IMG/VR virus record: IMGVR_UViG_3300033146_000708
Span: 1 to 27,641 of that record
Source of the DNA: a virus
DNA: 27,641 nt
Reading direction: 5' to 3' (one strand)
The notes under the pieces were generated by a model. It saw nothing but the letters and a program-made list of their open reading frames with translations, ran no database searches and was not told the DNA's origin. Position numbers and translations under genes: made by a program. Each line of letters begins with the position of its first letter. Within the stretch, counting starts at the first letter, position 1. Of the stretch, positions 10,762 through 27,570 are shown piece after piece.

Positions 10762-11403
10762 TTACAAGCAAAATGATTTTGATGTTTCAACAAAATCAAT
10801 TTCTAATTTTTCCAATTCTTGAATATATTTTTTTAAAATTTTTTCATCACCAATACCTCTTGTTGAAGCTAAATTTATAATTACTCTAAAACCAGCTTTT
10901 TTTAAATCTTTAACACCTTCACCAAGACAATAATTTAATGCAAGACCACCAACAATGAAAGTATCAACACCTAATATTTTTGCCATTTCAATGACACCTG
11001 TTGATATATTTTTTTTTAAATCATGATATATTGGACTATATGGATGCATATCTTTTTCTACTCCTTTATATACTAAAAAATCATATTCAGATGGTTTTGG
11101 TAATCCATCAATCAATTCAAAACCATATGTACCAACAACACAATGCTGATTCCACCTAATATCTACATTTTCTTCATCTACCTTACTAAATTGTGGATAT
11201 TTTTTATTTGCTGTCCAATATCCATTTGATGGATGTGCATCTTTACTCATAAATCTATATTTGGTAAATTTGGCATTATTGTTTAATTCTTCAACAATAT
11301 TATGTCCATCTTCAACAGGCAATTCACCAGGACAATTTGGTGTAAAACCATTTTGCGAATCAATATCAAAACTAATAGTTTTATTTTTATCTATTTTTAT
11401 CAT
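10762..11403 (-). CDS. pncA: Nicotinamidase (isochorismatase-fold), PncA-like
   Basis: 213 residues, the normal length for PncA. It hydrolyses nicotinamide to nicotinate and ammonia, feeding the Preiss-Handler route to NAD+. Visible landmarks: catalytic Asp15 in D-S-Q-N-G-F, metal-site residues D55-x-H57 (SKDAHP) and H87 (WNQHCVVGTYG), catalytic Lys113 (VYKGVEKDMHP), and the nucleophile Cys159 in VGGLALNYCLGEGV. All elements of the D-K-C triad and the metal site are in place, so the enzyme looks active. It follows nadE and a 31-residue mini-ORF in the same operon, with a 3-base gap. Another isochorismatase-family amidase is possible, but the motifs and the nadE neighbour favour nicotinamidase. 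Confidence 0.9.
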   Translation of the reverse strand: MIKIDKNKTISFDIDSQNGFTPNCPGELPVEDGHNIVEELNNNAKFTKYRFMSKDAHPSNGYWTANKKYPQFSKVDEENVDIRWNQHCVVGTYGFELIDGLPKPSEYDFLVYKGVEKDMHPYSPIYHDLKKNISTGVIEMAKILGVDTFIVGGLALNYCLGEGVKDLKKAGFRVIINLASTRGIGDEKILKKYIQELEKLEIDFVETSKSFCL

Positions 11404-11406
11404 AAT

Positions 11407-11502
11407 TTAATATTTTATATAATTTTCTCTTTTTTCATTATATGGATTTTCTCTTTTAAATTGAGATTTCATATGTCGTTGAATAACTGGTGTATCTTTC
11501 AT
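11407..11502 (-). CDS. 31-residue mini-ORF between nadE and pncA
   Basis: The ATG (11500-11502) overlaps the nadE stop in an ATGA, and the TAA (11407-11409) is 3 bases from the pncA start. The peptide begins MKDTPVIQRHMKSQFKREN and ends in KRENYIKY. It is basic and hydrophilic, with no membrane segment. Spacing this tight on both sides suggests a translated linker gene rather than chance. It may be an independent peptide, or the remnant of a nadE C-terminal extension separated by a stop. No family recognised. Confidence 0.5.
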   Translation of the reverse strand: MKDTPVIQRHMKSQFKRENPYNEKRENYIKY

Positions 11503-12284
11503 TTCATATAATCTTGTCCAACTTTTTTCATACTCATTAATTCATCAATCATCGATAAATAATCAATTAAAATAGCATCAACTTCATCATATCCAGATCT
11601 TGTTGATGTATGTCTATTTCTCCAATCTGGTAAAATTTGATCTAAATCTGTTGATGATATACCAAGACCATCAGTAGCATCACCATTAATACAGGACATC
11701 AATGCTTCTTTTTCTGATGTGATTAATTCATTATTTGCTAACCATTCTGACATATCATAAACTTCTGTTTTCCAAAGTTCTTGGATTAATCCATAATCTC
11801 CAACATCACCATGTAATGTCCAAAATCCCAATAATAATTCTGTCATATTATCTGTAGATAAAACAAGACCATTAAATTTTGATGCTAAATTATATAAATA
11901 TATCATTCTCATTCGAGCTTTTATATTTCCCATTCTTATTTTATATGCTTTATTATCATCATTATTTGGTACATCATCATCCCAATCATCTAATATCATA
12001 AATTCTTGTGATAAATCAATTTCTTTAAAATCTGTACAAAATAATTCACCTATTGCTTTTGCTCTACTTTGTTCTTCAACACTATTTGTATCAATAGTAA
12101 TTGAACGACCAATCAATGGTATATCGAGTTCATCACAAACAGGTTTAACTAATACTGCTACTAATGCAGAATCAATTCCACCACTTATACCTAACACTAA
12201 TGATTTAAGATTAGCTTTTATAATATATTCTTTAATCAAAATTCTCAAATTTTCAATTGTTTCTTTATAATCCAATTTTTTCAT
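11499..12284 (-). CDS. nadE: NH3-dependent NAD+ synthetase
   Basis: 261 residues, close to bacterial NadE without a glutaminase domain. It converts nicotinate adenine dinucleotide to NAD+ using ATP and ammonia. The N-type ATP pyrophosphatase P-loop is S34-G-G-I-D-S39 (LGISGGIDSALVAVL). Further family landmarks are S-T-D-N-M-T-E-L-L-L-G followed by FWTLHGDVGDYGLI, and a later D-G-L-G-I-S-S-T-D-L-D-Q-I-L block. It is the first gene of the leftward operon, divergent from deoC across a 116-base AT-rich gap. With pncA it supplies the two ends of nicotinamide-to-NAD+ salvage; nicotinate phosphoribosyltransferase and the adenylyltransferase are not in this window and would have to come from elsewhere in the genome or from the host. 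Confidence 0.92.
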   Translation of the reverse strand: MKKLDYKETIENLRILIKEYIIKANLKSLVLGISGGIDSALVAVLVKPVCDELDIPLIGRSITIDTNSVEEQSRAKAIGELFCTDFKEIDLSQEFMILDDWDDDVPNNDDNKAYKIRMGNIKARMRMIYLYNLASKFNGLVLSTDNMTELLLGFWTLHGDVGDYGLIQELWKTEVYDMSEWLANNELITSEKEALMSCINGDATDGLGISSTDLDQILPDWRNRHTSTRSGYDEVDAILIDYLSMIDELMSMKKVGQDYMK

Positions 12285-12400: not shown

Positions 12401-13207
12401 ATGAAAAACATTTTTAATTACAAAAAATTCTTAAATGAAAAGAAGAATATAAATGAAAATCATGACAAAGTTTTTGAATATAATGATATAATAGATTATA
12501 CATTATTAGATAATAGTGTTGATGATAATGCAATTATTGAATTATGTGAAAAAGCTAAACGTTTTGAAACAAAATCTGTTTGTGTTATGCCAAAACATGT
12601 AAAAATTGCAAATGAACAATTAAAAGATTCATCTGTTTTAGTTTGTACTGTAATATCATTTCCTGAAGGGACATACTCATTAGAAGAAAAAGAAAATGAA
12701 ACGAATCAAGTTATTGCTAATGGTGCTGATGAAGTTGATATGGTTTTAAATTATCATTTATTAAAATCAGAATGGAAAGATAATCCAACTGATGAAAATA
12801 CTTTACCTATTTATAATGAATTAGTTGAAGAAGTAAAATCTTTAGTGAATATTTGTCATAATTCTACTAATAAGGATGGTGATCCTATCACATTAAAAGT
12901 TATTGTTGAATCTGGTTTATTGACTCTTGAACAAACAAGAACAACAACTGATATTTGCTTAGATGCTGGTGCTGATTATATTAAGACTTCAACAGGAATG
13001 GTTTCTGTTGGTGCTGAATTAGATAAAATAAAAGTAATGTCTGATACTATTAAACAAGCAAGTTCAAATATGAAAATTAAAGCATCTGGTGGAGTTAGAA
13101 CAATTGCTGATATAAAATCATATCTACCTTATGTTGATAGATTAGGAATGGGTTTTGGTAGTGTAGATAAATTAAATGGTTTAGATTCTAATTCCGAAGG
13201 TTATTAA
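12401..13207 (+). CDS. deoC: Deoxyribose-phosphate aldolase with a capsid-targeting-like N-terminus
   Basis: 268 residues. DeoC splits 2-deoxyribose-5-phosphate into acetaldehyde and glyceraldehyde-3-phosphate. Residues visible: D113 in the A-D-E-V-D-M-V strand, the Schiff-base lysine K195 in DAGADYIKTSTG, and the second lysine K227 in KASGGVRT, so the active site looks intact. The end (LGMGFGSVDKLNG) is a plausible variant of the phosphate-binding C-terminus. The first 13 residues, MKNIFNYKKFLNE, are not part of the aldolase fold and resemble the T4 internal-protein capsid targeting sequence, ending in L-N-E. First gene of the rightward enzyme operon; an endonuclease gene follows after 6 bases. 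Confidence 0.9.
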   Translation: MKNIFNYKKFLNEKKNINENHDKVFEYNDIIDYTLLDNSVDDNAIIELCEKAKRFETKSVCVMPKHVKIANEQLKDSSVLVCTVISFPEGTYSLEEKENETNQVIANGADEVDMVLNYHLLKSEWKDNPTDENTLPIYNELVEEVKSLVNICHNSTNKDGDPITLKVIVESGLLTLEQTRTTTDICLDAGADYIKTSTGMVSVGAELDKIKVMSDTIKQASSNMKIKASGGVRTIADIKSYLPYVDRLGMGFGSVDKLNGLDSNSEGY

Positions 13208-13213
13208 AAAATT

Positions 13214-14278
13214 ATGTTTATAGAAAAAGCAAATAAACTTCATAATTTAAAATATAATTATAGTTTAGTTAATTATATTAATAGTAAAACTAAAGTGAAA
13301 ATTATTTGTCCGATTCATGGTATTTTTGAACAAACACCAGAAAAACATTTGATTGGTCAAGGTTGTCCTAAATGTGCAAAAAATTATAAATTAAACACAT
13401 CACAATTTATAAAAAAAGTGAAAAAAATACATAAATCAAAATATGATTATTCTTTAGTTAATTATAAAAATATGAAAGAAAATATAAAAATAATATGTCT
13501 GTTTCATGGTGTTTTTGAGCAAACACCAAACAATCATTTAAATGGTAAAGGATGTCCAAAATGTGCAAAAAATAAAAAAATAACACAAAATTCATTTATA
13601 GAAAAAGCTAAAGAAAAACATGATGATAAGTATGACTATTCATTAGTTAATTATAAAAATAGTAAAACTAAAGTGAAAATTATTTGTCCGATTCATGGTA
13701 TTTTTGAACAAACACCAGACAATCATATTCATAAAAAATATGGATGTTCAAAATGTAATGGAAAATTTAAAAATACAAATGAATTTATAAACATTTCTGA
13801 AAAAAGTCATGATAAAAAATATAATTATAGTTTAGTTGATTATAAAAATGGTAAAACTAAAGTGAAAATTATTTGTCCGATTCATGGTGTTTTTGAACAA
13901 ACACCAGAAAAACATTTGATTGGTCAAGGTTGTCCTAAATGTAATAATAGTCATGGAGAAAATGAAATTGAAAAAATTTTAAATAATAAAAATATATTAT
14001 TTGAAACACAGAAAAAATTTAAAAATTGTAAAGATAAATATTATTTACCATTTGATTTTTATTTACCTGAATATAACCTTTGTATTGAATTTGATGGTAT
14101 TCAACATTTTAAACCTATTGATTATTTTGGTGGTGAAGAAAAATTTAAACTACAACAAAAACGAGATTCAATAAAAAATATATACTGTAAAGAAAATAAT
14201 ATTAATTTATTAAGAATAAAATATAATGAAAATATTAAAGAAAAAATAGAAACACTTAATAATTACATTAATGGATAA
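13214..14278 (+). CDS. Putative homing endonuclease: four DUF723-like modules plus PD-(D/E)XK nuclease
   Basis: 354 residues. Four tandem modules of about 60 residues cover residues 1-240. Each has the form K-x-H-x-x-K-Y-(D/N)-Y-S-L-V-(N/D)-Y, T/E-K/N-V/I-K-I-I-C-x-x-H-G-(I/V)-F-E-Q-T-P, then H...G-C-(P/S)-K-C. The C-x-x-H and C-x-x-C pairs look like zinc ligands of a ribbon-type DNA-binding unit. From about 245 a Vsr/DUF559-like nuclease follows: G-E-N-E-I helix, D281 in LPFDFYLPEY, E292-F-D294-G-x-Q-H, and a K-R-D...YC...LLRIKY end. Free-standing endonucleases of this kind spread by homing. It sits between deoC and the deoxyribosyltransferase gene and, unlike them, lacks the capsid-targeting-like start. 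Homing activity is inferred. Confidence 0.8.
   Translation: MFIEKANKLHNLKYNYSLVNYINSKTKVKIICPIHGIFEQTPEKHLIGQGCPKCAKNYKLNTSQFIKKVKKIHKSKYDYSLVNYKNMKENIKIICLFHGVFEQTPNNHLNGKGCPKCAKNKKITQNSFIEKAKEKHDDKYDYSLVNYKNSKTKVKIICPIHGIFEQTPDNHIHKKYGCSKCNGKFKNTNEFINISEKSHDKKYNYSLVDYKNGKTKVKIICPIHGVFEQTPEKHLIGQGCPKCNNSHGENEIEKILNNKNILFETQKKFKNCKDKYYLPFDFYLPEYNLCIEFDGIQHFKPIDYFGGEEKFKLQQKRDSIKNIYCKENNINLLRIKYNENIKEKIETLNNYING
13280..13942 (+). repeat. Intragenic DNA repeats in the endonuclease gene
   Basis: Module-encoding DNA is nearly identical between copies: 62 bases at 13280-13341 recur exactly at 13658-13719, and 13284-13375 recurs at 13851-13942 with one mismatch in 92. Such identity across three of four modules points to recent duplication or gene conversion. 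Confidence 0.9.
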
Positions 14279-14294
14279 AAAAAAAAAATGAAAT

Positions 14295-15275
14295 ATGAAA
14301 AAATTAAAGAAATATACTGAATTTTTATTTGAAAAGAAAAATATAGAAAATAATGAAGATTTTCAATTATTTTTTGATAAAGTTATGACATTATCAAATT
14401 CTGATATAATGGAATTAAGAGACGAGATTCAAAAAATTGCAGATAATATGTCTGTGAATGAAAATATCTATAATCTTAAAAGAAAGTTTAATTCGTGGTT
14501 TGATGATAGATTATTCAAATTTTTAATTAATAGAAAAAAAAGTTTTTATTTAAATATTATTGAGAAACTTAATCTCTTTGATTTAGAAAATTTAGATGAT
14601 GTTATGAAAAATTTTCATTTAAAATCAATAGATGGACTATATTTAGCTGGTGGTATGGATGCTAGTGAAGATACTGGTGCTGGATGGAGAATTGAAGTTG
14701 AAGAAGAATTTGAATTCAATAATCCTGGTAAATATAGTAAAGATGTAGATGAAATTAAAGTTGGTGATAAAATGATTATGCCAGCTTATGTTGTTGATGG
14801 TATATTTTTAGATAAAGTTTTATCTGATACAAAAAACACTTTAAAATTATATGATAAACCAGTTTTATTTAATCCAGTAAGAAAGGAAGTTGATAGAAAT
14901 AAAGATGATAAATTTGATAATTCTATTGATACTATGAAAGATCCAAATTGGGATGCTGAAGAAAATTCAGAACCATTTGATTTTTTTCAAAAAACTTTTG
15001 CTGGATCAATTGAACCTGATGATGAACATTTATTAAGAATTGCAACAGCTACATTTTTAGGATATAATCCTGATGCAGGTGCAGGAACATATGGTGAATT
15101 GGAATTATTATCAATGATTAGAAAACCATTATTTGTTTGGTTGACTGGGGATTATAATAATGATATGGGGAAATTCAAATTATGGAATATACCACATATA
15201 TCAAAAATTGCAAGAAATAAAGAAGAGATGAAAATTTTAGTTAAAGCGATCAAAAATACAACACAAATAAAATAA
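14295..15275 (+). CDS. Nucleoside 2-deoxyribosyltransferase-like protein with capsid-targeting-like N-terminus
   Basis: 326 residues. The first 13, MKKLKKYTEFLFE, match the capsid-targeting-like pattern and end in L-F-E. A helical segment of about 100 residues follows. The catalytic part starts near residue 115 with L-Y-L-A-G-G-M-D, then T-G-A-G-W-R, V-L-F-N-P-V, and finally N-P-D-A-G-A-G-T-Y-G-E-L, matching the family's nucleophile-glutamate region (G-T-x-x-E-L), followed by KPLFVW. The fold family includes nucleoside deoxyribosyltransferases and deoxynucleoside-5'-monophosphate N-glycosidases (Rcl/DNPH1). The second activity would release deoxyribose-5-phosphate, the DeoC substrate, but which reaction applies cannot be read from the sequence. 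It lies between two endonuclease genes. Confidence 0.75.
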   Translation: MKKLKKYTEFLFEKKNIENNEDFQLFFDKVMTLSNSDIMELRDEIQKIADNMSVNENIYNLKRKFNSWFDDRLFKFLINRKKSFYLNIIEKLNLFDLENLDDVMKNFHLKSIDGLYLAGGMDASEDTGAGWRIEVEEEFEFNNPGKYSKDVDEIKVGDKMIMPAYVVDGIFLDKVLSDTKNTLKLYDKPVLFNPVRKEVDRNKDDKFDNSIDTMKDPNWDAEENSEPFDFFQKTFAGSIEPDDEHLLRIATATFLGYNPDAGAGTYGELELLSMIRKPLFVWLTGDYNNDMGKFKLWNIPHISKIARNKEEMKILVKAIKNTTQIK

Positions 15276-15278
15276 ATA

Positions 15279-16184
15279 ATGCCTAAAAAAATAAGTGTTG
15301 AAAAAATATTAGAAACATTTGATAATAAACATCATAGTAAATATGATTATTCATTATCAGTTATAAAAAATACACATTCTAATATAAAAATAATTTGTTC
15401 AAAGCATGGAATATTTGAACAACGTGTTTCAAATCATATGAAAGGAAACATTTGTCCTTATTGTTCAGGTAGATTGAATAATTTATCAACATTTAAAGAA
15501 AAATCAATAAAAAAACATTTACATAAATATGATTATTCATTGGTTAATTATATAAATAACACAACAAAAGTGAAAATAATTTGTTCAAAACATGGTGTTT
15601 TTGAACAAATGCCTTTAGTACATCTTAAAGGTGGTGGTTGTCCAAAATGTGGTGGAACAAAAAAATTAAATACAAATGATTTTATACTAATATCAAAAGA
15701 AATACATGGAGATAAATATGATTATTCATTAGCTGAATATAAGACGGCTAAAAACAAAGTGAAAATTGTTTGTCCAGAACATGGTATTTTTGAACAAATA
15801 CCAGACAATCATTTAAGACGAAAACAAGGGTGTCCAATATGTAAAGAAAGTAAAGGTGAAAAAGAAATAAGAGTTTTATTAGAAAGTAAAAAAATTAATT
15901 TTATTTCACAAAAACGATTTGAAAAATGTAAAAATAAATTACCATTACCTTTTGATTTTTATTTACCAGATTACAATATGTGTATTGAATTTGATGGTAA
16001 ACAACATTTCAAACCAGTTGAACGTTGGGGTGGTGAAGAAGGTTTAATGATAAGAAAAAAGAAAGATAAAATTAAAAATAATTTCTGTAAAGAAAATAAT
16101 ATTAAATTATTAAGAATAAAATATAATGATAATATAAAAAATAAAATAGAAGAAAATGAAAACATACAATCATTTTTTAAATGA
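15279..16184 (+). CDS. Putative homing endonuclease: three DUF723-like modules plus PD-(D/E)XK nuclease
   Basis: 301 residues. Three zinc-ribbon-like modules span residues 5-188, each with KYDYSL, I-(I/V)-C-x-x-H-G-(I/V)-F-E-Q and a C-P-x-C knuckle. The nuclease follows: G-E-K-E-I helix near 192, D226 in LPFDFYLPDY, E237-F-D-G-K-Q-H, and LLRIKY close to the end. The same architecture as the gene at 13214, but with one module fewer and diverged sequence, so it is a relative rather than a fresh copy. It starts 3 bases after the deoxyribosyltransferase-like gene and its last 29 bases overlap the start of the next gene, as expected for an insertion tolerated at a gene boundary. No capsid-targeting-like start. 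Confidence 0.8.
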   Translation: MPKKISVEKILETFDNKHHSKYDYSLSVIKNTHSNIKIICSKHGIFEQRVSNHMKGNICPYCSGRLNNLSTFKEKSIKKHLHKYDYSLVNYINNTTKVKIICSKHGVFEQMPLVHLKGGGCPKCGGTKKLNTNDFILISKEIHGDKYDYSLAEYKTAKNKVKIVCPEHGIFEQIPDNHLRRKQGCPICKESKGEKEIRVLLESKKINFISQKRFEKCKNKLPLPFDFYLPDYNMCIEFDGKQHFKPVERWGGEEGLMIRKKKDKIKNNFCKENNIKLLRIKYNDNIKNKIEENENIQSFFK

Positions 16185-16986
16185 ATTAGCTGAAAATAAA
16201 TTAAAATATGCTGCATATGATTGGGATGATAATATATTAAATATGCCAACAAAAATACATTTACAAAAAAAAGAGAATGATAAATTTATATCTGTTGATA
16301 TTTCAACAGATGAATTTGTTAATTATCGAAATAAAATATCACAAAATCCAAAAGAAGGTGAATATAGAATTTATGATAATGATATAGCAAAAACATATGC
16401 AAATTTTGGTGATAATGATTTATTTATTAAAGAAACTAAAGAAGGATTAGATAAAAAATCATATGGACCAGCTTTTTATAATTTTATTAATACCTTAATT
16501 AATGGTGAAATATTTGCTATTATAACTGCACGAAGTGTTAGTCCATTAACTTTAAAGAAAAGTGTGGAAATAATTATATATGATTACTTATCTGAATCAC
16601 AACACCATCAAATGTTAGAAAATTTAATGGATTATTCAGATTTATTTGGAACTAATCCAGATTCTTTGATTGAACATTATTTAGAAAAATGTGATTATTA
16701 TCCTGTTAATTCTAAAGAATTTATTTCACGACATGAAGGTAATGTGGATCCAGCTAATCCAGAAATTGGGAAAAAAATAGCATTAAATGAATTTTCAAAA
16801 AGAATAGAACAATATGGTTTACAAACGAATAGAAATGTTAAATTAGGTTTTAGTGATGATGATACAGTAAATATTAATGCAATTACTAAACATTTTAATG
16901 AAATTAATGATATATATAATATTAATTATTATGTTTTTGATACATCGAATAATGATAAAAATAATATTATTAAAACAAAAATATGA
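16156..16986 (+). CDS. HAD-superfamily phosphatase-like protein with capsid-targeting-like N-terminus
   Basis: 276 residues. The start MKTYNHFLNE is the closest in the window to the T4 capsid targeting sequence MKTYQEFIAE. HAD motif I is Y-D22-W-D24-D-N, motif II is the threonine in I-I-T-A-R-S, a possible motif III lysine lies in E-I-G-K-K-I-A, and motif IV is G-F-S-D-D-D. The cap region between them is large (about residues 40-200). Substrate unknown; given deoC and the deoxynucleotidase-like neighbour, a nucleotide or sugar phosphate is plausible. The ATG lies inside the end of the preceding endonuclease gene, and the stop overlaps the next start (ATGA). Confidence 0.75.
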   Translation: MKTYNHFLNELAENKLKYAAYDWDDNILNMPTKIHLQKKENDKFISVDISTDEFVNYRNKISQNPKEGEYRIYDNDIAKTYANFGDNDLFIKETKEGLDKKSYGPAFYNFINTLINGEIFAIITARSVSPLTLKKSVEIIIYDYLSESQHHQMLENLMDYSDLFGTNPDSLIEHYLEKCDYYPVNSKEFISRHEGNVDPANPEIGKKIALNEFSKRIEQYGLQTNRNVKLGFSDDDTVNINAITKHFNEINDIYNINYYVFDTSNNDKNNIIKTKI

Positions 16987-17478
16987 TACATTTAGATACA
17001 TATAAATTATTTGAAAAAAAATCATCAATAAAAATATATTGTGATATGGATGATGTTTTAACAGATTTTAATAGAACATAAAACAAACATAAAAAATGGT
17101 TGGGATTTTTCAAAAAAATATGGTGATAAAAAGTTTTGGACTGAAATAGAAAAATTAGGTATCACATTTTGGTCTGAGATGTATTGGAAAGAAGATGGAA
17201 AAGAATTATGGAATTTTTTAAAAAAATATGATAATGTTAAAATTTTATCTAAACCATCAAAAGATAGATTAAGTAAAAAAGGTAAAATAATTTGGTGTAA
17301 GAGAGAATTAGGAGTTAAACCAATTCTTAGTTTTAAGAAATCTGATTATGCAGATAAAAATTCTATTTTAATTGATGATTTAAAACAAAATATTGATGAA
17401 TGGATACAAGCAGGAGGTATTGGTATTTTACATAAAAATACTAAAAATACAATACAACAATTAAAGAAATATGTTTAA
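16983..17478 (+). pseudogene. Frameshifted 5'(3')-deoxyribonucleotidase-like HAD gene with capsid-targeting-like start
   Basis: The first frame starts at 16983 (ATGA overlap with the previous stop): MIHLDTYKLFE, a capsid-targeting-like start ending in L-F-E, then motif I IYCDMDDVLTDFNRT, then TAA at 17079. The rest of the same protein continues in the +1 frame from about 17080: NGWDFSKKYG, FWTEIEKLGITFWSEMYW, DGKELWNFLKKY, K-I-L-S-K-P-S-K, S-I-L-I-D-D-L-K-Q-N-I-D-E-W and G-G-I-G-I-L-H-K. This layout fits the NT5C-type deoxyribonucleotidase family that removes phosphate from deoxynucleoside monophosphates. An ATG at 17179 in the second frame would give only a 99-residue fragment without motif I. 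Alternatives to a dead gene are a sequencing error or programmed +1 frameshifting. Confidence 0.75.
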
Positions 17479-20699: not shown

Positions 20700-23600
20700 A
20701 TGCCAATACAAAACAAAGATTTGGGAAAATATAACAGACCAGGTATATTTATCAACGAAATTGATAATTCTATTATTGAATTACCACAACAAGATATTTT
20801 AATAAATTTAGTACCAGGTTTCTCAAAAAAAGGACCAGTAAATAAACCTATTTATGTTACAAACAAAGCAGATTTTATAGCAATATTTGGAGATATTGAT
20901 AGAGGATTAGAAAGAAAAAGTTCTTTTTTTCATAGAACATGTATAAAAATGTTAGAATCAGGACCAATTTATGCTCTTAATTTATTATTAACTGATGATG
21001 AAAGAGATAAAGCAAACTGGAAAACATTATCATGTGCATCAAATTATAAAAATGATATAACAAAAAAAATACCTTATTCTAGACTTTTTAATCGTCAAGA
21101 TTTTTGGGAAAGAGATAATGAATCATTTTTAGATTATGTAAATGATCCAATAGTGGATTATGATAGAATTTTACATTTATCAAATTTAGGTAATAAAGTC
21201 ACAACAACTTTTATTTTTAAATCTAAAACATCTGGTTTTGATATTTCAGCAGAAGATTGGTATGGTGGTCCAACAAAAGTACCTGTTTATATTAATCCAA
21301 AAGATTGGATTTCAGATTATATAGTTTCAGTTATTATTTTAGATGGTGATTGGACTAATTATGATGTTTTATCAGAAGATCAAACTTGGGGACAATATTT
21401 CTCAACAACTGGACTAAATAAAGCAACTATACAAGATTTTGTTAATGAACCTAATGTAAATACTTTAGGTTTTTATGATGCATCATTAATACCTTATTTT
21501 AAAGATATTACAGGTAGAGATATGTATATTAAATCATTAATTAATAATGAAACAGATAAAACTGGTCTTTTCTGTGCTTATTTTGAAGATGAAATGTTAG
21601 ATGCAGATTTTCCAATCGGAAAAGTAGATTTAATAGGTGATGGATTAGTTGGTGAATCTCAATCAAGTATTGATTTTTTATCATATAAAGAAGATATATT
21701 TGAAGTTTTAACTTATGAAACAACAACATTAAATTCTTGTGGAAATGTATTTGGTAATTATTCAACTGAATTAGAAAATGATTTTATTTCTGGTAGAACT
21801 GCTGAATGTACTAATCATTATGTTCATGGTATGACATTTGGTAATGGTAGTCTTTTAACTGCTTCTACATTAATAGAATTGGATCATACTGGACAAGCAA
21901 CAGGTAAATCTTGGTTTTTTATGAATTCTTCTGTTAATTTTACATCAGCACCACAACAATTATTAGTTATTGGTGATGCTGTAGTATTTAATAAAGCATT
22001 TGATACAATTGAAGCAAATAAAATATATTATGTTGAAGATGTTTCTGATGGTGGTAGAATGATTAGTGTTTCTGATACTCATGATGGTAATCCTATTGGA
22101 TTTAGTATGGCATCATCTTTATCAGATATGTATATTCAAAGAGTAGAATTTAATTTTAATTATACATTACCATATTTTGTTTTAGATAATACAAAATACA
22201 CAATTAATTCTGGACAAACTGAATTTACATTCAAAGGTTTAGAATTCGTTGGTACACCTTCAGTTAATTTAGAAAGATATGATGTATTGTATTTAAGTAA
22301 AGGAAATAATGCAGAAGTAAATATTTTGACTGGTACTCAATCAACAACTGGTGCAGAAAAACCAAATTTTATGCTAGATTATAATGATAATCTAATATTA
22401 GGTTATGTTCATTTGACATTAAGTTCTGGAAATACACCAGCAACAGGTGCAACAGATTATGTTATTAATGCTGATTATACACCAATAACGGTTGATACAA
22501 ATGGTTACGTTCCATTAACAGATATTATAATTACAAGTGGTTCTACTGGTGATAATTATATTAAAATATCATTTGGTAATACATCTGGATCAACTGATTA
22601 TACTAATTATAACCAAATTAGATATAGAAATGCATTTGATGAAATTAATAATAAATTAGATGATGGTAAAGGAGTGATAATAAATCATAATGATGCATCT
22701 AAATATAAATTAGATGATGGTAAAGGAGTGATAATAAATCATAATGATGCATCTAAATTTTATATTACTCAATCAAATATGAGTGGTCATGATTATAATA
22801 ATTCGATTAATGGTTTAATAACTATTAATGTAGGTTCTTTAGATCCAACAGATTTTTATAATACTGATACATATAAATGGTTAGTTTACTATTTAGATAA
22901 TGAATTTGTTTTAAATGAAAATAATTGTGATAGAGCATTTACATCAGCATTATATGTTGATTCATTAGTAGGTTCTGGACAAACATCAACTACAAACGCT
23001 GGAGTTATTGGTAGATATGCAAATATTTATATGGATTACTATAATGGAATTTTAAACAATGGTGATTATGCTTATATGAATAATGACACTGGTTCAACTA
23101 CTAAATTTATGATTAAAGCATGGATACAAGATGATAATATTCTTTATATTGATTTTATGAGTGAAGATGGTGTTTCACCATTCCCTATTGATATTATAGA
23201 TTATGATAATGAATTAATTTTCTATTCTACTGATTCTAATTATAAACAAACTGTTGAAATTGAAAGTTTTGATATATCTAAACCAATTACAAGCATTTAT
23301 GAAATAAATGTAGATGCATCTAGATATTCAGAATTAGTGAAAGGAGATTTCTTAGAAGCATATTATGATGAAACTGATTTAGAAATTGGTCAAGATCCAA
23401 GAAAATTAACTAGAATTGTGAAAGTTCTTGGACATCCAACAATTCCTAATTTAAAAGTTATTAATTGTGATGCACCAATTAAAATTAATTCTATCAATAG
23501 AATTGGTGGTGGATATGATTATCAAACAACAACATATCCAACTATTGAAAAATATGTATCAGATTATAAAGGAATTAAATTGATACCATTTACTATAAGT

Positions 23601-24605
23601 AATGAATCTATACCAAATGGTTCTGAAACCAGACAATCTGGTATTTTAGATTTATTATCACCAACTACAAATTTAGGTAAAGGTTTGATAAATAAAAATA
23701 AGATTTCTTGGAGATATTTAATTGATAGTTTTGGTCTTGGTTTAACATCAAAATCTAAACAACAATATAGTGATTTACTTGGTAAAAAATTAAATTCATT
23801 AGGATTTATTTCCGCACCTTCAGTAAAAACATTAAAACATTCAACAAATCCTAGTTTTATTAATGATGATGTAACATTAAACACAGAATACTTAAAAACT
23901 GGTGGTGATGAAACAAAAAATCCATCATTCTTATATTCATTCGCAGAAGGAATTGGAAGATCAACTATTGGTTATTTCTTCCCATATGTTACTATTGATG
24001 ATTTAGGAGTTCCAAAAGATGTTCCACCAGCAGCTTGGGCTGCATCAACTTATATGAAGAAATTCTTAGCATCTTCTTCAGCAATTCAACCTTGGACTAT
24101 TGCAGCAGGTATTACTAATGGTAGGGTAACTGATATTTCACAAGTTGAAATGGATTTTAATGATGATCAATTAGCAGATTTATATTCAATGGGATTAAAT
24201 CCTATTGTTAAAAAGAAAAATGCTGGTTTCTGTATTAATTCTGAATCAAGTGCACAAGTTTTTCCTTATTCATCTCTTTCAATGATTCATTCAAGAGAAG
24301 TATTAATTGAATTGGAAAACACATTATATGATATGTTACTTAGATATCAATGGAGATTCAATACAGGTGCTATTCGTGCTGAAATTAAATATAAAGCTGA
24401 TAAAATTTGTACAGATATTCAAAATAGAGAAGGTCTTTATGACTTTAAAAATGTTATTGACGAAACTAATAATACTAACTATATTATTGATTTACAAATG
24501 GGTGTTTTAGATACATTTATAGAAATAATTAAAGGAATGGGTATAATAGTAAATAACATCACAATCTTGAAAAAAGGTGATATACAATCAGGTGGCTTTC
24601 AATAA
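20700..24605 (+). CDS. Tail sheath protein (T4 gp18-like), unusually long
   Basis: 1301 residues, about twice T4 gp18 (659). The N-terminus (N-R-P-G-I-F-I-N-E-I-D, then I-N-L-V-P-G-F-S-K-K-G-P and the V-T-N-K-A-D-F-I-A-I-F-G block) is the standard start of contractile sheath proteins. The C-terminal 300 residues carry the conserved core: G-R-S-T-I-G-Y-F-F-P-Y-V, P-P-A-A-W-A-A, Q-P-W-T-I-A-A-G-I, L-Y-S-M-G-L-N-P-I, a long L-Y-D-M-L-L-R-Y-Q-W-R-F helix and a final V-N-N-I-T-I-L strand. Residues about 110-1000 include large beta-rich insertions, probably decorating the tail surface. An exact 54-bp tandem duplication repeats an 18-residue unit at about residues 651-686. It has its own 5' gap with a late-promoter candidate and ends at a hairpin terminator. 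Confidence 0.92.
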   Translation: MPIQNKDLGKYNRPGIFINEIDNSIIELPQQDILINLVPGFSKKGPVNKPIYVTNKADFIAIFGDIDRGLERKSSFFHRTCIKMLESGPIYALNLLLTDDERDKANWKTLSCASNYKNDITKKIPYSRLFNRQDFWERDNESFLDYVNDPIVDYDRILHLSNLGNKVTTTFIFKSKTSGFDISAEDWYGGPTKVPVYINPKDWISDYIVSVIILDGDWTNYDVLSEDQTWGQYFSTTGLNKATIQDFVNEPNVNTLGFYDASLIPYFKDITGRDMYIKSLINNETDKTGLFCAYFEDEMLDADFPIGKVDLIGDGLVGESQSSIDFLSYKEDIFEVLTYETTTLNSCGNVFGNYSTELENDFISGRTAECTNHYVHGMTFGNGSLLTASTLIELDHTGQATGKSWFFMNSSVNFTSAPQQLLVIGDAVVFNKAFDTIEANKIYYVEDVSDGGRMISVSDTHDGNPIGFSMASSLSDMYIQRVEFNFNYTLPYFVLDNTKYTINSGQTEFTFKGLEFVGTPSVNLERYDVLYLSKGNNAEVNILTGTQSTTGAEKPNFMLDYNDNLILGYVHLTLSSGNTPATGATDYVINADYTPITVDTNGYVPLTDIIITSGSTGDNYIKISFGNTSGSTDYTNYNQIRYRNAFDEINNKLDDGKGVIINHNDASKYKLDDGKGVIINHNDASKFYITQSNMSGHDYNNSINGLITINVGSLDPTDFYNTDTYKWLVYYLDNEFVLNENNCDRAFTSALYVDSLVGSGQTSTTNAGVIGRYANIYMDYYNGILNNGDYAYMNNDTGSTTKFMIKAWIQDDNILYIDFMSEDGVSPFPIDIIDYDNELIFYSTDSNYKQTVEIESFDISKPITSIYEINVDASRYSELVKGDFLEAYYDETDLEIGQDPRKLTRIVKVLGHPTIPNLKVINCDAPIKINSINRIGGGYDYQTTTYPTIEKYVSDYKGIKLIPFTISNESIPNGSETRQSGILDLLSPTTNLGKGLINKNKISWRYLIDSFGLGLTSKSKQQYSDLLGKKLNSLGFISAPSVKTLKHSTNPSFINDDVTLNTEYLKTGGDETKNPSFLYSFAEGIGRSTIGYFFPYVTIDDLGVPKDVPPAAWAASTYMKKFLASSSAIQPWTIAAGITNGRVTDISQVEMDFNDDQLADLYSMGLNPIVKKKNAGFCINSESSAQVFPYSSLSMIHSREVLIELENTLYDMLLRYQWRFNTGAIRAEIKYKADKICTDIQNREGLYDFKNVIDETNNTNYIIDLQMGVLDTFIEIIKGMGIIVNNITILKKGDIQSGGFQ
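22651..22758 (+). repeat. Exact 54-bp tandem duplication in the sheath gene
   Basis: Bases 22651-22704 are repeated exactly at 22705-22758, in frame, doubling the unit KLDDGKGVIINHNDASKY (second copy ends in F after the junction). Zero divergence indicates a very recent event. Confidence 0.97.
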
Positions 24606-24627
24606 AAATTAAGTTTATTTAAATAGA

Positions 24628-24657
24628 AAAAAGTTGATTATTAGTAATCAACTTTTT
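24628..24657. terminator. Bidirectional hairpin terminator between convergent genes
   Basis: A 13-bp stem (AAAAAGTTGATTA with TAATCAACTTTTT) and a 4-base TTAG loop. A-rich on the left and T-rich on the right, so it can terminate both the sheath transcript and the minus-strand endonuclease operon, whose last stop codon (24641-24643) lies in the loop. Confidence 0.88.
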
Positions 24658-25528
24658 CTTTTATTCTAATAAATTTACATTTTAGAAAAGATTTAATTTC
24701 ATTTTCACGAATTAAATCTTTTTCTTTTTGTTTTTTTGATTCATGATACTTTTCATCATATTCATATACAATATTATTTTCAATATCATAACCATCAATC
24801 CAGTAACCAAGTTCTTTGATATAATATTCTCCACCATTCATTGCATGTTGAATATGAACATTTTTCTTTTCTGATATTTTATCAAAGATTTTACATGCTT
24901 TTGGATTAAAATTTGGTGTTATTTGATATCCATTTTTTAAATTATTATTAATTTTTTTTAATATTAATATTCTTTTCTTAATATTACCACATTTTGGACA
25001 ACCTTGACCTAGAATGTGTTTTTCTGGAGTTTGTTTAAAAACACCATGTAATGAACAAATGATTTCAATTTTTGTTTTCATTGTAGAATAATCTTCAGGA
25101 TATTTATATTTGTTATTATGAACTTTATTTGCTTTTTCTATAAATTCATCTGTCATGATATTCTTTCCAACACATTTAGGACATCTATTTTGTTGTAAGT
25201 GGTTATTCGGCATTTGAAAGAATTCACCATGTTCTGGACAAATTATCTTTATTTTTGTTTTACTATTTATGTAAGTATCAGGATATTTATATTTATTATT
25301 ATGAATTTTATTTGCTTTTTCTATAAATTCTTCAGTAGTCATCTTTACACCACCATTACATATTGGACAACCTTGTCCAATAAAATGTTTGTTCGGTGTT
25401 TGAAAGAATTCACCATGTTCTGGACAAATTATCTTTATTTTTGTCTTAGTATTTATGTAAGTATCAGGATATTTATATTTATTATTATGAATTTTATTTG
25501 CTTTTTCTATAAATTCATCTGTTGTCAT
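24641..25528 (-). CDS. Putative endonuclease: three DUF723-like modules plus a variant nuclease domain
   Basis: 295 residues. Three modules (about 1-62, 63-124, 125-180) read F-I-E-K-A-N-K-(I/V)-H-N-N-K-Y-K-Y-P, I-(K/E)-I-I-C-x-x-H-G-(E/V)-F-(F/K)-Q-(T/M)-P and G-C-P-x-C or R-C-P-K-C. They are closer to each other than to those of the plus-strand genes. The C-terminal domain differs from the LPFDFYLP type: G-Y-W-I-D-G-Y-D, then V-Y-E-Y-D-E-K-Y-H, K-x-K-D-L-I-R and C-K-F-I-R-I-K-E, a PD-(D/E)XK-like order of Asp, Glu and Lys. Last gene of the coupled minus-strand row; its ATG overlaps the previous stop (ATGA). Probably a homing-type endonuclease, by domain content. Confidence 0.75.
   Translation of the reverse strand: MTTDEFIEKANKIHNNKYKYPDTYINTKTKIKIICPEHGEFFQTPNKHFIGQGCPICNGGVKMTTEEFIEKANKIHNNKYKYPDTYINSKTKIKIICPEHGEFFQMPNNHLQQNRCPKCVGKNIMTDEFIEKANKVHNNKYKYPEDYSTMKTKIEIICSLHGVFKQTPEKHILGQGCPKCGNIKKRILILKKINNNLKNGYQITPNFNPKACKIFDKISEKKNVHIQHAMNGGEYYIKELGYWIDGYDIENNIVYEYDEKYHESKKQKEKDLIRENEIKSFLKCKFIRIKEKVDY
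25213..25516 (-). repeat. Near-identical module DNA, 186-bp offset
   Basis: Bases 25213-25330 recur at 25399-25516 with two mismatches in 118, an offset of exactly 62 codons. A recent module duplication or conversion inside the endonuclease gene. Confidence 0.9.
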
Positions 25529-26424
25529 ATTTTTAATATATTTTCTATTTCATTAATAACATCTAATATATCATAATCTATATTAAACCATTCAGTATAA
25601 CCACCATGTTTTATTGGATGATTTATTTTATATTTTTTAAAATGATTATGAACTTCAATTTCTTTTAAACCACTATTTTCAAATATTTTACATATCTCTA
25701 AATTTTTATTTAAATCATTATTTAATTTTTTAAATCGTTTGTTTATATTTAATGTTATACCAATTTTGTATATTTTAAATTTTTTATCTCTTATTAAATA
25801 CAATTTTTTATCTTTAAAATTAATATTTTTTAAATTAGCACATCTATAACAACCTTTGCCTTGTAAATGTGAATCTGGTCGTTGTTTAAAATCACCATGT
25901 ATTGGACAAGTAATAATTAATGGTGTTTTATTGTTTACATAATCTGCTTTCAGATATGAATATTTATTATTATGAATATTTTTTGCATTATTTATAAAAA
26001 CATCGATTGTTGATGTTATTTTCAATACTGTTTTTTCTTTAATATTTGTATTTTTCATGGGATTATCAACACCATATTTGTTGATGAAAAATTCTTTTTG
26101 TTTGTTTTTAGATTCAATAGTTTTTGCATAATTTGAAACTCCATATTTTTCGTAACATGTCATCTCAGATTTTATTTTTGAACATTTTTTACATGTATAA
26201 AAATTATATCTTTTTACATTTCTATTATAATTATAATATGTGGTTTCTAATTCTAAATCACAAATATCACATTTAACAATAATAATATTTTTTGCTGTAT
26301 TTGGTAAATATTTTACATCAATTTTATATTCTTCACCAACAACTAATTTTGTGTTAAGAATTTTTTCTAATCGTTTTTTATTTGATGAATTAATTGTAAC
26401 ATAAACCTCATTTGTCAAGATCAT
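25525..26424 (-). CDS. Putative homing endonuclease: N-terminal DNA-binding repeats, one DUF723-like module, GIY-YIG-like nuclease
   Basis: 299 residues. Residues about 50-85 hold a two-CxxC zinc unit (C-D-I-C and C-K-K-C). Then come two copies of a K-Y-G-V-(S/D)-N-(Y/P)-x-K/M motif (E-K-Y-G-V-S-N-Y-A-K and N-K-Y-G-V-D-N-P-M-K), a NUMOD-like element common in homing enzymes. One DUF723-like module follows (H-N-N-K-Y-S-Y, I-I-T-C-P-I-H-G-D-F-K-Q, G-C-Y-R-C). The C-terminal 100 residues are of the GIY-YIG/T5orf172 type: L-Y-L-I-R-D, Y-K-I-G-I-T-L-N-I-N-K-R-F-K-K-L, E-V-H-N-H-F and G-G-Y-T-E-W-F. So a different nuclease has been joined to the same targeting module. Overlaps the upstream gene by 17 bases. 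Confidence 0.78.
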   Translation of the reverse strand: MILTNEVYVTINSSNKKRLEKILNTKLVVGEEYKIDVKYLPNTAKNIIIVKCDICDLELETTYYNYNRNVKRYNFYTCKKCSKIKSEMTCYEKYGVSNYAKTIESKNKQKEFFINKYGVDNPMKNTNIKEKTVLKITSTIDVFINNAKNIHNNKYSYLKADYVNNKTPLIITCPIHGDFKQRPDSHLQGKGCYRCANLKNINFKDKKLYLIRDKKFKIYKIGITLNINKRFKKLNNDLNKNLEICKIFENSGLKEIEVHNHFKKYKINHPIKHGGYTEWFNIDYDILDVINEIENILKI

Positions 26425-26848
26425 TTATCAGTCTTTCTATTTTTTTCTTTCTCAAAAACTGTTTACACTTATCATCTTTTAAAAGAGTTGAAAATCTTAT
26501 TAAATAATCTGGTAATGTTTTATTTTTTTTTCTTGTTAAAAAAGTTTCTATTTTTTCAAAATGAATATTATATTTATATATTGTGAATTTATGATAACTT
26601 CTATATTTGTTTGTTTCTTTTAAAAAATTAGTCGCAAATTCATAAAAATCTATTTTAAAGTAATCTTTTTGTTTTAAAATATCTTTGTCTTTATTTATTA
26701 TTTTTAACATTATTTCAGTTGAATCAGTAATTTCGAACATTTTTCCTCTATATGTTATTAAATAATAATCTTCTTCTTTTTTTATATTTATAATTTTCTT
26801 ATATAAATCTACTATTATATTATCTGGTATTTTTATCTTTGGATACAT
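26408..26848 (-). CDS. Unknown 146-residue protein within the endonuclease row
   Basis: Begins MYPKIKIPDNIIVDLYKKII, after the ATTAATATG context. Very Lys/Ile-rich, alpha/beta in look, with a basic C-terminal half (FLTRKKNKTLPDYLIRF, FLRKKKIERL). No zinc ligands, nuclease motif or DUF723-like module. Starts 5 bases after the upstream endonuclease and overlaps the next by 17 bases, so it is part of the same transcript. It could be a cargo gene carried with the endonucleases or an original phage gene between insertions. Confidence 0.6.
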   Translation of the reverse strand: MYPKIKIPDNIIVDLYKKIINIKKEEDYYLITYRGKMFEITDSTEIMLKIINKDKDILKQKDYFKIDFYEFATNFLKETNKYRSYHKFTIYKYNIHFEKIETFLTRKKNKTLPDYLIRFSTLLKDDKCKQFLRKKKIERLINDLDK

Positions 26849-26853
26849 ATTAA

Positions 26854-27570
26854 TTATATATATTTGTTCAATATTTGTTTTATTTTGAATTCTATTTTTT
26901 CATCATAATTAATTCGTTCTAAATCGATAAATTTTTCTTTACAAAACTTTGTTTTAATTTTATCATGATTTTTTATTAATTTGAATTTTTTATCACCACC
27001 AAAATATTTAATTGGTTTATAATGTTGTATACCATCATATTCAATACATAAATTATATTCTGATAAATAAAAATCAAATGGTAATGTATATTTATCTCGA
27101 CAATCATTAAATCTTTTTTCTCTTATGTATGATATTTTATTTTTTTCTAAATAATATATTATCTCATTTTCACCTTTACTTGTTTTACAAATAGGACATC
27201 CTTGTAAATTATTTATATGATCTGTTGGTCTCTGTTCAAACACACCATGTTTTGAACATATTATTTTTACTTTTGTTTTACTATTTATATAATTTACTAA
27301 TGAATAATCATATTTGTCTCTGTGTATCTTTTTTGCTTTTTTTGTAAAAGTTTTTCTCGTATCTTTTTTTAATTCTATTGCACAATGTTTACATCCTTTA
27401 GATTTATTAATATGTTCTGTCATTGATTGATAAAATATACCATGTTTAGAACATTTTATCATTACTTTTTTATGCATATTTGTGTACTCAACTAAAGAAT
27501 AATCATATTTATCTCCATGTATATTTTTTGCTTTTTCTATTATTTGACTTAAAGTGTATTTTCTAGACAT
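26854..27570 (-). CDS. Putative homing endonuclease: two DUF723-like modules plus PD-(D/E)XK nuclease
   Basis: 238 residues, the shortest of the series. Two modules (residues 5-65 and 72-130) with KYDYSLVEY/KYDYSLVNY, K-C-S-K-H-G-I-F-Y-Q / I-C-S-K-H-G-V-F-E-Q and G-C-K-H-C / G-C-P-I-C. The nuclease has a G-E-N-E-I helix near 133, D166 in LPFDFYLSEY, E177-Y-D179-G-I-Q-H-Y, G-G-D-K-K-F, a K-x-x-D-K-I-K-T-K-F-C helix and a final strand. It closely resembles the enzymes at 13214 and 15279. The ATG overlaps the stop of the upstream partial gene (ATGTCTAG). Confidence 0.8.
   Translation of the reverse strand: MSRKYTLSQIIEKAKNIHGDKYDYSLVEYTNMHKKVMIKCSKHGIFYQSMTEHINKSKGCKHCAIELKKDTRKTFTKKAKKIHRDKYDYSLVNYINSKTKVKIICSKHGVFEQRPTDHINNLQGCPICKTSKGENEIIYYLEKNKISYIREKRFNDCRDKYTLPFDFYLSEYNLCIEYDGIQHYKPIKYFGGDKKFKLIKNHDKIKTKFCKEKFIDLERINYDEKIEFKIKQILNKYI

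Follow-up and report, generated by a model that had tools for sequence, protein, structure and literature searches.

Candidate capsid-targeting tags at the N-termini of accessory enzymes in megaphages

An enzyme cluster with a common N-terminus

The window analysed here is the whole of an isolated 27.6-kb virus record (IMGVR_UViG_3300033146_000708, positions 1 to 27,641), the head module lying outside this fragment. Its plus strand carries a cluster of metabolic enzyme genes whose products start alike. The first encodes a deoxyribose-phosphate aldolase (DeoC, 12401..13207; Pfam DeoC, 2.3e-14, matched from residue 43) that opens with the N-terminal tag MKNIFNYKKFLNE (12401..12439), with a predicted cut after Glu13. 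It is followed by a deoxyribosyltransferase-like (DRT-like) protein (14295..15275), which displays the motifs YLAGGMD...AGAGTYGEL, has no Pfam match, and starts with MKKLKKYTEFLFE (14295..14333). The third is a HAD-like phosphatase (16156..16986) with the aligned motifs DWDDN, ITAR, and GFSDDD, preceded by the tag MKTYNHFLNE (16156..16185). These three starts obey a common pattern, [YF]xx[FY][LI]xE, in the window form Y-x-x-F-L-x-E, and the residues following the Glu are K, K, and L. The pattern is found in 3 of the 26 window ORFs and after none of 91 internal methionines (Fisher p = 0.01).

The fourth gene, that of a nucleotidase, begins on the plus strand with an ATG at 16983 overlapping the HAD-like stop codon (ATGA). 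Its variant tag, MIHLDTYKLFE, heads a frame (16983..17081) that stops after 32 codons, and the body of the 5'-3' deoxyribonucleotidase (17179..17478, plus strand; phrog_2643, 1.1e-13) continues in another frame; the gene is therefore frame-broken as assembled. The frame changes between about 17070 and 17090, and a pseudogene or an assembly error are both possible. The core of this tag, Y-K-L-F-E, differs in spacing from the other three, and spacing of this type is also common in one of the relatives described below (W02), as exemplified by MIYLKTYKLFENN. A first-pass annotation of this DNA had listed the four enzyme N-termini, all of which are present in the sequence. It had seen in them one shared start, which holds for DeoC, the DRT-like protein, and the HAD-like protein, the nucleotidase having its own spacing in a broken gene; it had also closed the cluster at 17015, short of the fourth gene's end at 17478.

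Two endonuclease-like inserts (13214..14278 and 15279..16184, plus strand) are interleaved with these genes. Both had been described as devoid of the tag, which their ORF starts confirm, and they serve as an internal control. Together with 24641-25528 and 26854-27570, they belong to a set of at least four related endonuclease-like ORFs of the window that contain repeated zinc-finger-like units, two of them interrupting the tagged cluster. Beside the cluster, divergent on the minus strand (10762-12284), nicotinamidase-like and NAD synthetase genes form a NAD salvage pair, which also adjoins the cluster in contigs L285 and L287.

Over its full length, the window's tail sheath shares 45% identity with that of LR756501 (735 kb), the next relatives by this protein being LR745206, LR756502, LR756504, and LR756500. 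Among these genomes, the largest are Mahaphages, with predicted Bacteroidetes hosts (PMC7162821), an assignment that covers the 634, 636, 642, and 735 kb genomes, LR756500 (462 kb) being outside that comparison. By its core structural genes, the window fragment is related to the Mahaphages. Four whole relatives of 462-735 kb were analysed: W01 (LR756501), W02 (LR745206), W04 (LR756504), and W05 (LR756500). Because their ORFs come from a simple greedy caller, gene counts are approximate.

The tag as a detachable module

The DeoC orthologue of W01 starts with MVKNFDKFVRE and that of the close relative L285 with MKNFLNFINE, the tagged DeoC occupying in L285 and L286 the same neighbourhood as in the window. 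Matches of the window DeoC to PDB DeoC structures nearly all begin at residue 20 or later, mostly at 26-30, 3r12 being matched from residue 7; most cellular DeoC homologues stop short of the tag. The DRT-like orthologue of W01 also carries the tag (MKNFTRFINE), and single-sequence AlphaFold prediction of the window protein (pLDDT 34) is uninformative as to its fold. The HAD orthologues of W01 and W02 possess the tag or a close variant, and those of W04 and L001 begin at the catalytic DWDDN. The AF2 model of the window HAD-like protein reaches a pLDDT of 90, with a mean of 53 for residues 1-10 and about 90 for most of the core; the predicted fold yields weak matches only to known HAD proteins. 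The HAD and DeoC comparisons indicate that the tag is separable from the mature protein. The nicotinamidase is tagged in W01 (MKVIKFSDYLKE), bears a tag of the other, W02 class described below in W02 (MKYIRTYESY), and is untagged in the window. Overall, 11 orthologue pairs have both members tagged, versus 1.9 expected.

At the nucleotide level, the tag codons vary synonymously among genes and the upstream DNA is unrelated, so that the conserved entity is the peptide.

Tags across the genomes of the relatives

The first-pass annotation had proposed looking for the N-terminal pattern genome-wide, and in the four relatives it is enriched at gene starts. The expression ^M.{1,7}[YF]xx[FY][LIV]xE matches 48 of 820 gene starts in W01 (5.9%), 21 of 791 in W02 (2.7%), 20 of 763 in W04 (2.6%), and 20 of 544 in W05 (3.7%), versus 0.28%, 0.12%, 0.14%, and 0.07%, respectively, after internal methionines (Fisher p from 4e-25 to 1e-9). 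Shuffled N-termini match at 0.12-0.19%. As this expression was derived from the finding itself, it was set against every one of the 336 possible spacings of two aromatic residues, an aliphatic residue, and a Glu. The T4 spacing comes top in W01 (50 genes, median 2) and W04 (23, median 1), ties for the top rank in W05 (20, median 1), and takes third place in W02 (22, median 2), where a sister class (MKYLKxFNES, MKYLKxYK[IL]FES) is commoner than the T4-spaced tag. An unsupervised motif, trained on one half of the genes and run on the other with a false-positive rate of 1%, marks 98/820 genes in W01, 122/791 in W02, 37/763 in W04, and 38/544 in W05 (slightly more in a rerun), hence about 5-16% of genes, including some false positives, for example the native N-termini of an SMC-type protein and a pyrimidine-dimer glycosylase. 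At the position after the tag Glu, which lies outside the expression, Ala is enriched 5-fold and Ser 3.3-fold among 114 clade tags.

These counts bear on the suggestion that the shared N-terminus is functionless, arising from composition bias at AT-rich gene starts or from the copying of a short DNA cassette. Gene starts of AT-rich genomes do abound in K, I, F, N, and Y, and some neighbouring genes of W05 have identical tags. However, several other large relatives lack the tag, shuffled N-termini fail to reproduce it, and the codon variation and unrelated upstream DNA are at odds with a cassette, making this already disfavoured explanation highly improbable. As sole causes, N-terminal composition is rejected by the shuffled N-termini, a DNA cassette by the codons and upstream DNA, and chance by the tag frequency, which neither shuffled N-termini nor internal methionines yield.

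Each relative encodes dozens to over a hundred unrelated tagged proteins, a set far wider than the nucleotide metabolism on which the first reading had centred. Among the members confirmed individually are PPK2 (tagged in W01 as well as in W02), a radical SAM protein, a methyltransferase, two NUDIX types, a T4-type RNA ligase, a DHH protein (weak), and a 2H phosphoesterase/exonuclease. Scanning the complete tagged sets for families, with some false positives among the hits, adds a CCA-adding/poly(A) polymerase and others, and most tagged proteins are without any family match. For genes whose orthologues occur in all four genomes, none of the 204 copies is tagged, versus 173 of the 2138 without an orthologue (p = 1.4e-7). 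A family of large tagged proteins (about 15 members of 333-772 aa, some with a SPIAKKL motif) recurs in W01, W02, and W04; a Pfam search of this family (e.g., W01 62965-66169) returned no match.

Prohead protease, repeat scaffold, and comparison with T4

A gp21-type prohead protease, which the first-pass annotation had also proposed to look for, is encoded by the relatives. Profile searches match the S77 (T4 gp21-type) family in all five large relatives, W01-W05, with a score above the curated cut-off in W05 and below it in W01-W04. The W05 protease aligns to T4 gp21 (PDB ID: 5jbl), and both catalytic positions, His and Ser, are conserved in the alignment. The protease ORFs of W01, W02, W04, and W05 (632-807 aa) each adjoin a gp23-like capsid gene; the W05 capsid protein had no match when searched against PDB sequences. 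In W01, W02, and W04, the protease is fused to a scaffold made of about 11-13 tandem fourteen-residue units, YSEY[IL]AENLDKNI, the core of which, Y-S-E-Y-[IL]-A-E, is the same heptad as that of the tag. Heptads of the form [YF]xx[YF][ILV]xE number 14, 11, and 11 in these ORFs, the runner-up proteins having 7, 3, and 3. The residue before the Glu is preferentially Asn in tags and Ala in scaffold repeats, which explains why a strict tag matrix missed the latter. In W05, the tags are strong and the scaffold repeats degenerate. Another repeat protein of W01 (21458-26533, 1691 aa), in which seven repeats of the FVKY[LI]IE type follow one another at intervals of about 60 residues, was considered as scaffold-type and set aside, as it is not linked to the head module.

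The repeat is present in 554 IMG/VR contigs, and protease motifs occur in the same ORF in all 80 contigs fetched. S77 proteases also exist in phages Lak, PAU, and PTm1, although YSEY[IL]AE-type scaffold repeats were found neither in these phages nor in MaF61 (for Lak and PTm1, over the part of the genome that was read). Over the same sequences, tags in these repeat-less phages amount to 1/353 in Lak, 0/265 in PAU, 0/185 in PTm1, and 0/170 in MaF61. Thus, in the relatives, the tag co-occurs with the protease and a repeat-bearing scaffold.

In phage T4, the capsid-targeting sequence (CTS) directs internal proteins into the prohead, and the gp21 protease cuts after (L/I)-x-E. The first-pass annotation had ascribed MKTYQEFIAE to the internal proteins IPI-III, and it is seen at the starts of ipII and ipIII. 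Mutational work on the CTS has assigned targeting to residues 4 and 7, and permission of processing to residues 8 and 10 (summarised in PMC9026906). The conserved Y, F, I/L, and E of the tag correspond to these residues 4, 7, 8, and 10. The megaphage system is similar to that of T4 IPII/IPIII in its 10-13 N-terminal residues, the four determinants, and their spacing, and an S77 protease and a gp23-like capsid protein are found in the window's relatives as well. In terms of sequence, the tag is N-terminal, has the T4 CTS spacing, and is restricted to accessory proteins. The T4-like character first proposed for the window is indirectly supported by the spacing, the detachable N-terminal module, and the protease of the relatives, the fourth tag being of another spacing class, and the first-pass reading of the shared start is partly supported. 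Of the three findings that the first-pass annotation had named as refuting it, two were looked for, namely a missing prohead protease (in the relatives) and tagged homologues outside phages (for DeoC), and neither speaks against it.

The shared start is best explained as a T4-type capsid-targeting propeptide, greatly expanded in these megaphages, to which we give a probability of roughly three in four. While the head is being assembled, each cargo enzyme's [YF]xx[FY][IL]xE peptide would join the scaffold core, probably through its likeness to the scaffold's repeated unit. The S77 prohead protease would then cut after the tag Glu, before Ser, Ala, Asn, or a similar residue, and the enzyme, released within the head, would travel with the DNA into the next cell. 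Core binding, cleavage, packaging, and injection of the tagged proteins are all inferred from sequence, and the immediate action on host nucleotides proposed by the first-pass annotation is likewise a prediction. A more specific version, which we hold only tentatively and consider rather less probable than its contrary, is that the tag corresponds to one unit of the scaffold's tandem repeat. Megaphages would have evolved a protease-scaffold of about a dozen YSEY[IL]AE units, and any protein bearing one of them at its N-terminus would co-assemble and be freed by the protease attached to the scaffold. In this way, 5-16% of genes, and more than 100 protein species in some phages, would ship in the head.

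Several findings count against the capsid-targeting reading. The 5-16% of tagged genes would imply dozens to over a hundred packaged species, and we know of no case with so many. The tag is missing from some orthologues (HAD in W04 and L001, nicotinamidase in the window), several W02 variants are without a clean [LI]xE, and the S77 scores of W01-W04 are below the cut-off. Furthermore, the repeats are degenerate in W05, tags and repeats differ in their Asn or Ala, and the T4 scaffold gp22 has no repeats of this heptad.

The tag might instead target another phage structure or compartment, such as a site of assembly or replication, and resemble the T4 CTS by coincidence. The capsid location of the tagged proteins is indeed deduced, and a clean cut site is missing from many of the variants in W02 and W04. 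However, the T4 determinants at identical spacing, the small residues after the Glu, the same heptad in the protease-scaffold ORF, and the absence of the tag where the scaffold has no repeats make this unlikely. Less likely still is that the tag is a mere cleavage or docking site of the S77 protease at assembly, with no delivery into the next cell. The T4 gp23 site (FGSFLTE, residues 59-65, cut at FGSFLTE/A) and the gp24 site (INELLRE) do resemble the tag, but the tagged set comprises enzymes and accessory proteins, never core genes, as would be expected of cargo.

As a capsid-targeting propeptide, the tag would serve a system that departs from T4 in several respects. The T4 cargo consists of a few small anti-restriction proteins, whereas the tagged set of the relatives comprises dozens to over a hundred accessory proteins, metabolic enzymes included. 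Unlike in T4, the relatives' protease is fused to the scaffold, which in three of them harbors tandem tag heptads. The T4 Alt ADP-ribosyltransferase is packaged in the head and injected (PMC9026906), as the tagged megaphage enzymes would be; Alt targets the host RNA polymerase, whereas the tagged enzymes belong to nucleotide, NAD, and polyphosphate metabolism and to RNA repair. In the giant phages SPN3US/phiKZ, a prohead protease processes numerous head proteins, ejection proteins among them (PMC5694885), but several SPN3US propeptides exceed 100 residues and a single one is as short as the T4 CTS, in contrast with the short, shared megaphage tag. An open-access, non-exhaustive literature search found neither virion proteomics of these phages nor a description of their tags; this is apparently an undescribed, large expansion of a known kind of system.

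The tag frequency suggests that these phages fill their heads with many enzymes to be delivered to the host. If so, the largest known phages would bring a ready-made enzyme kit into the host at infection, comprising nucleotide salvage, NAD, polyphosphate, RNA repair, and possibly counter-defence enzymes. The tag would provide a sequence rule to predict the virion cargo of uncultured megaphages and would suggest a role for many unknown proteins, and mimicry of the scaffold repeat would offer a testable mechanism for what a T4-type CTS binds.

In marine phages, the HAD-like enzyme bears a different N-terminal tag, M[KN][IVL]K[IL]TESQxxxLLxEF, ahead of the DWDDN core. Among marine contigs (L288-L338, L353-L364, and L001), peptides of the LTES- or LNEEIxRMKSLFTE type are found at the starts of 14 out of 95 homology clusters, versus none of 331 internal methionines; this clustered count replaced an unsupervised motif that orthologous neighbours dominated. 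The marine contigs suggest that lineage-specific tags are widespread.
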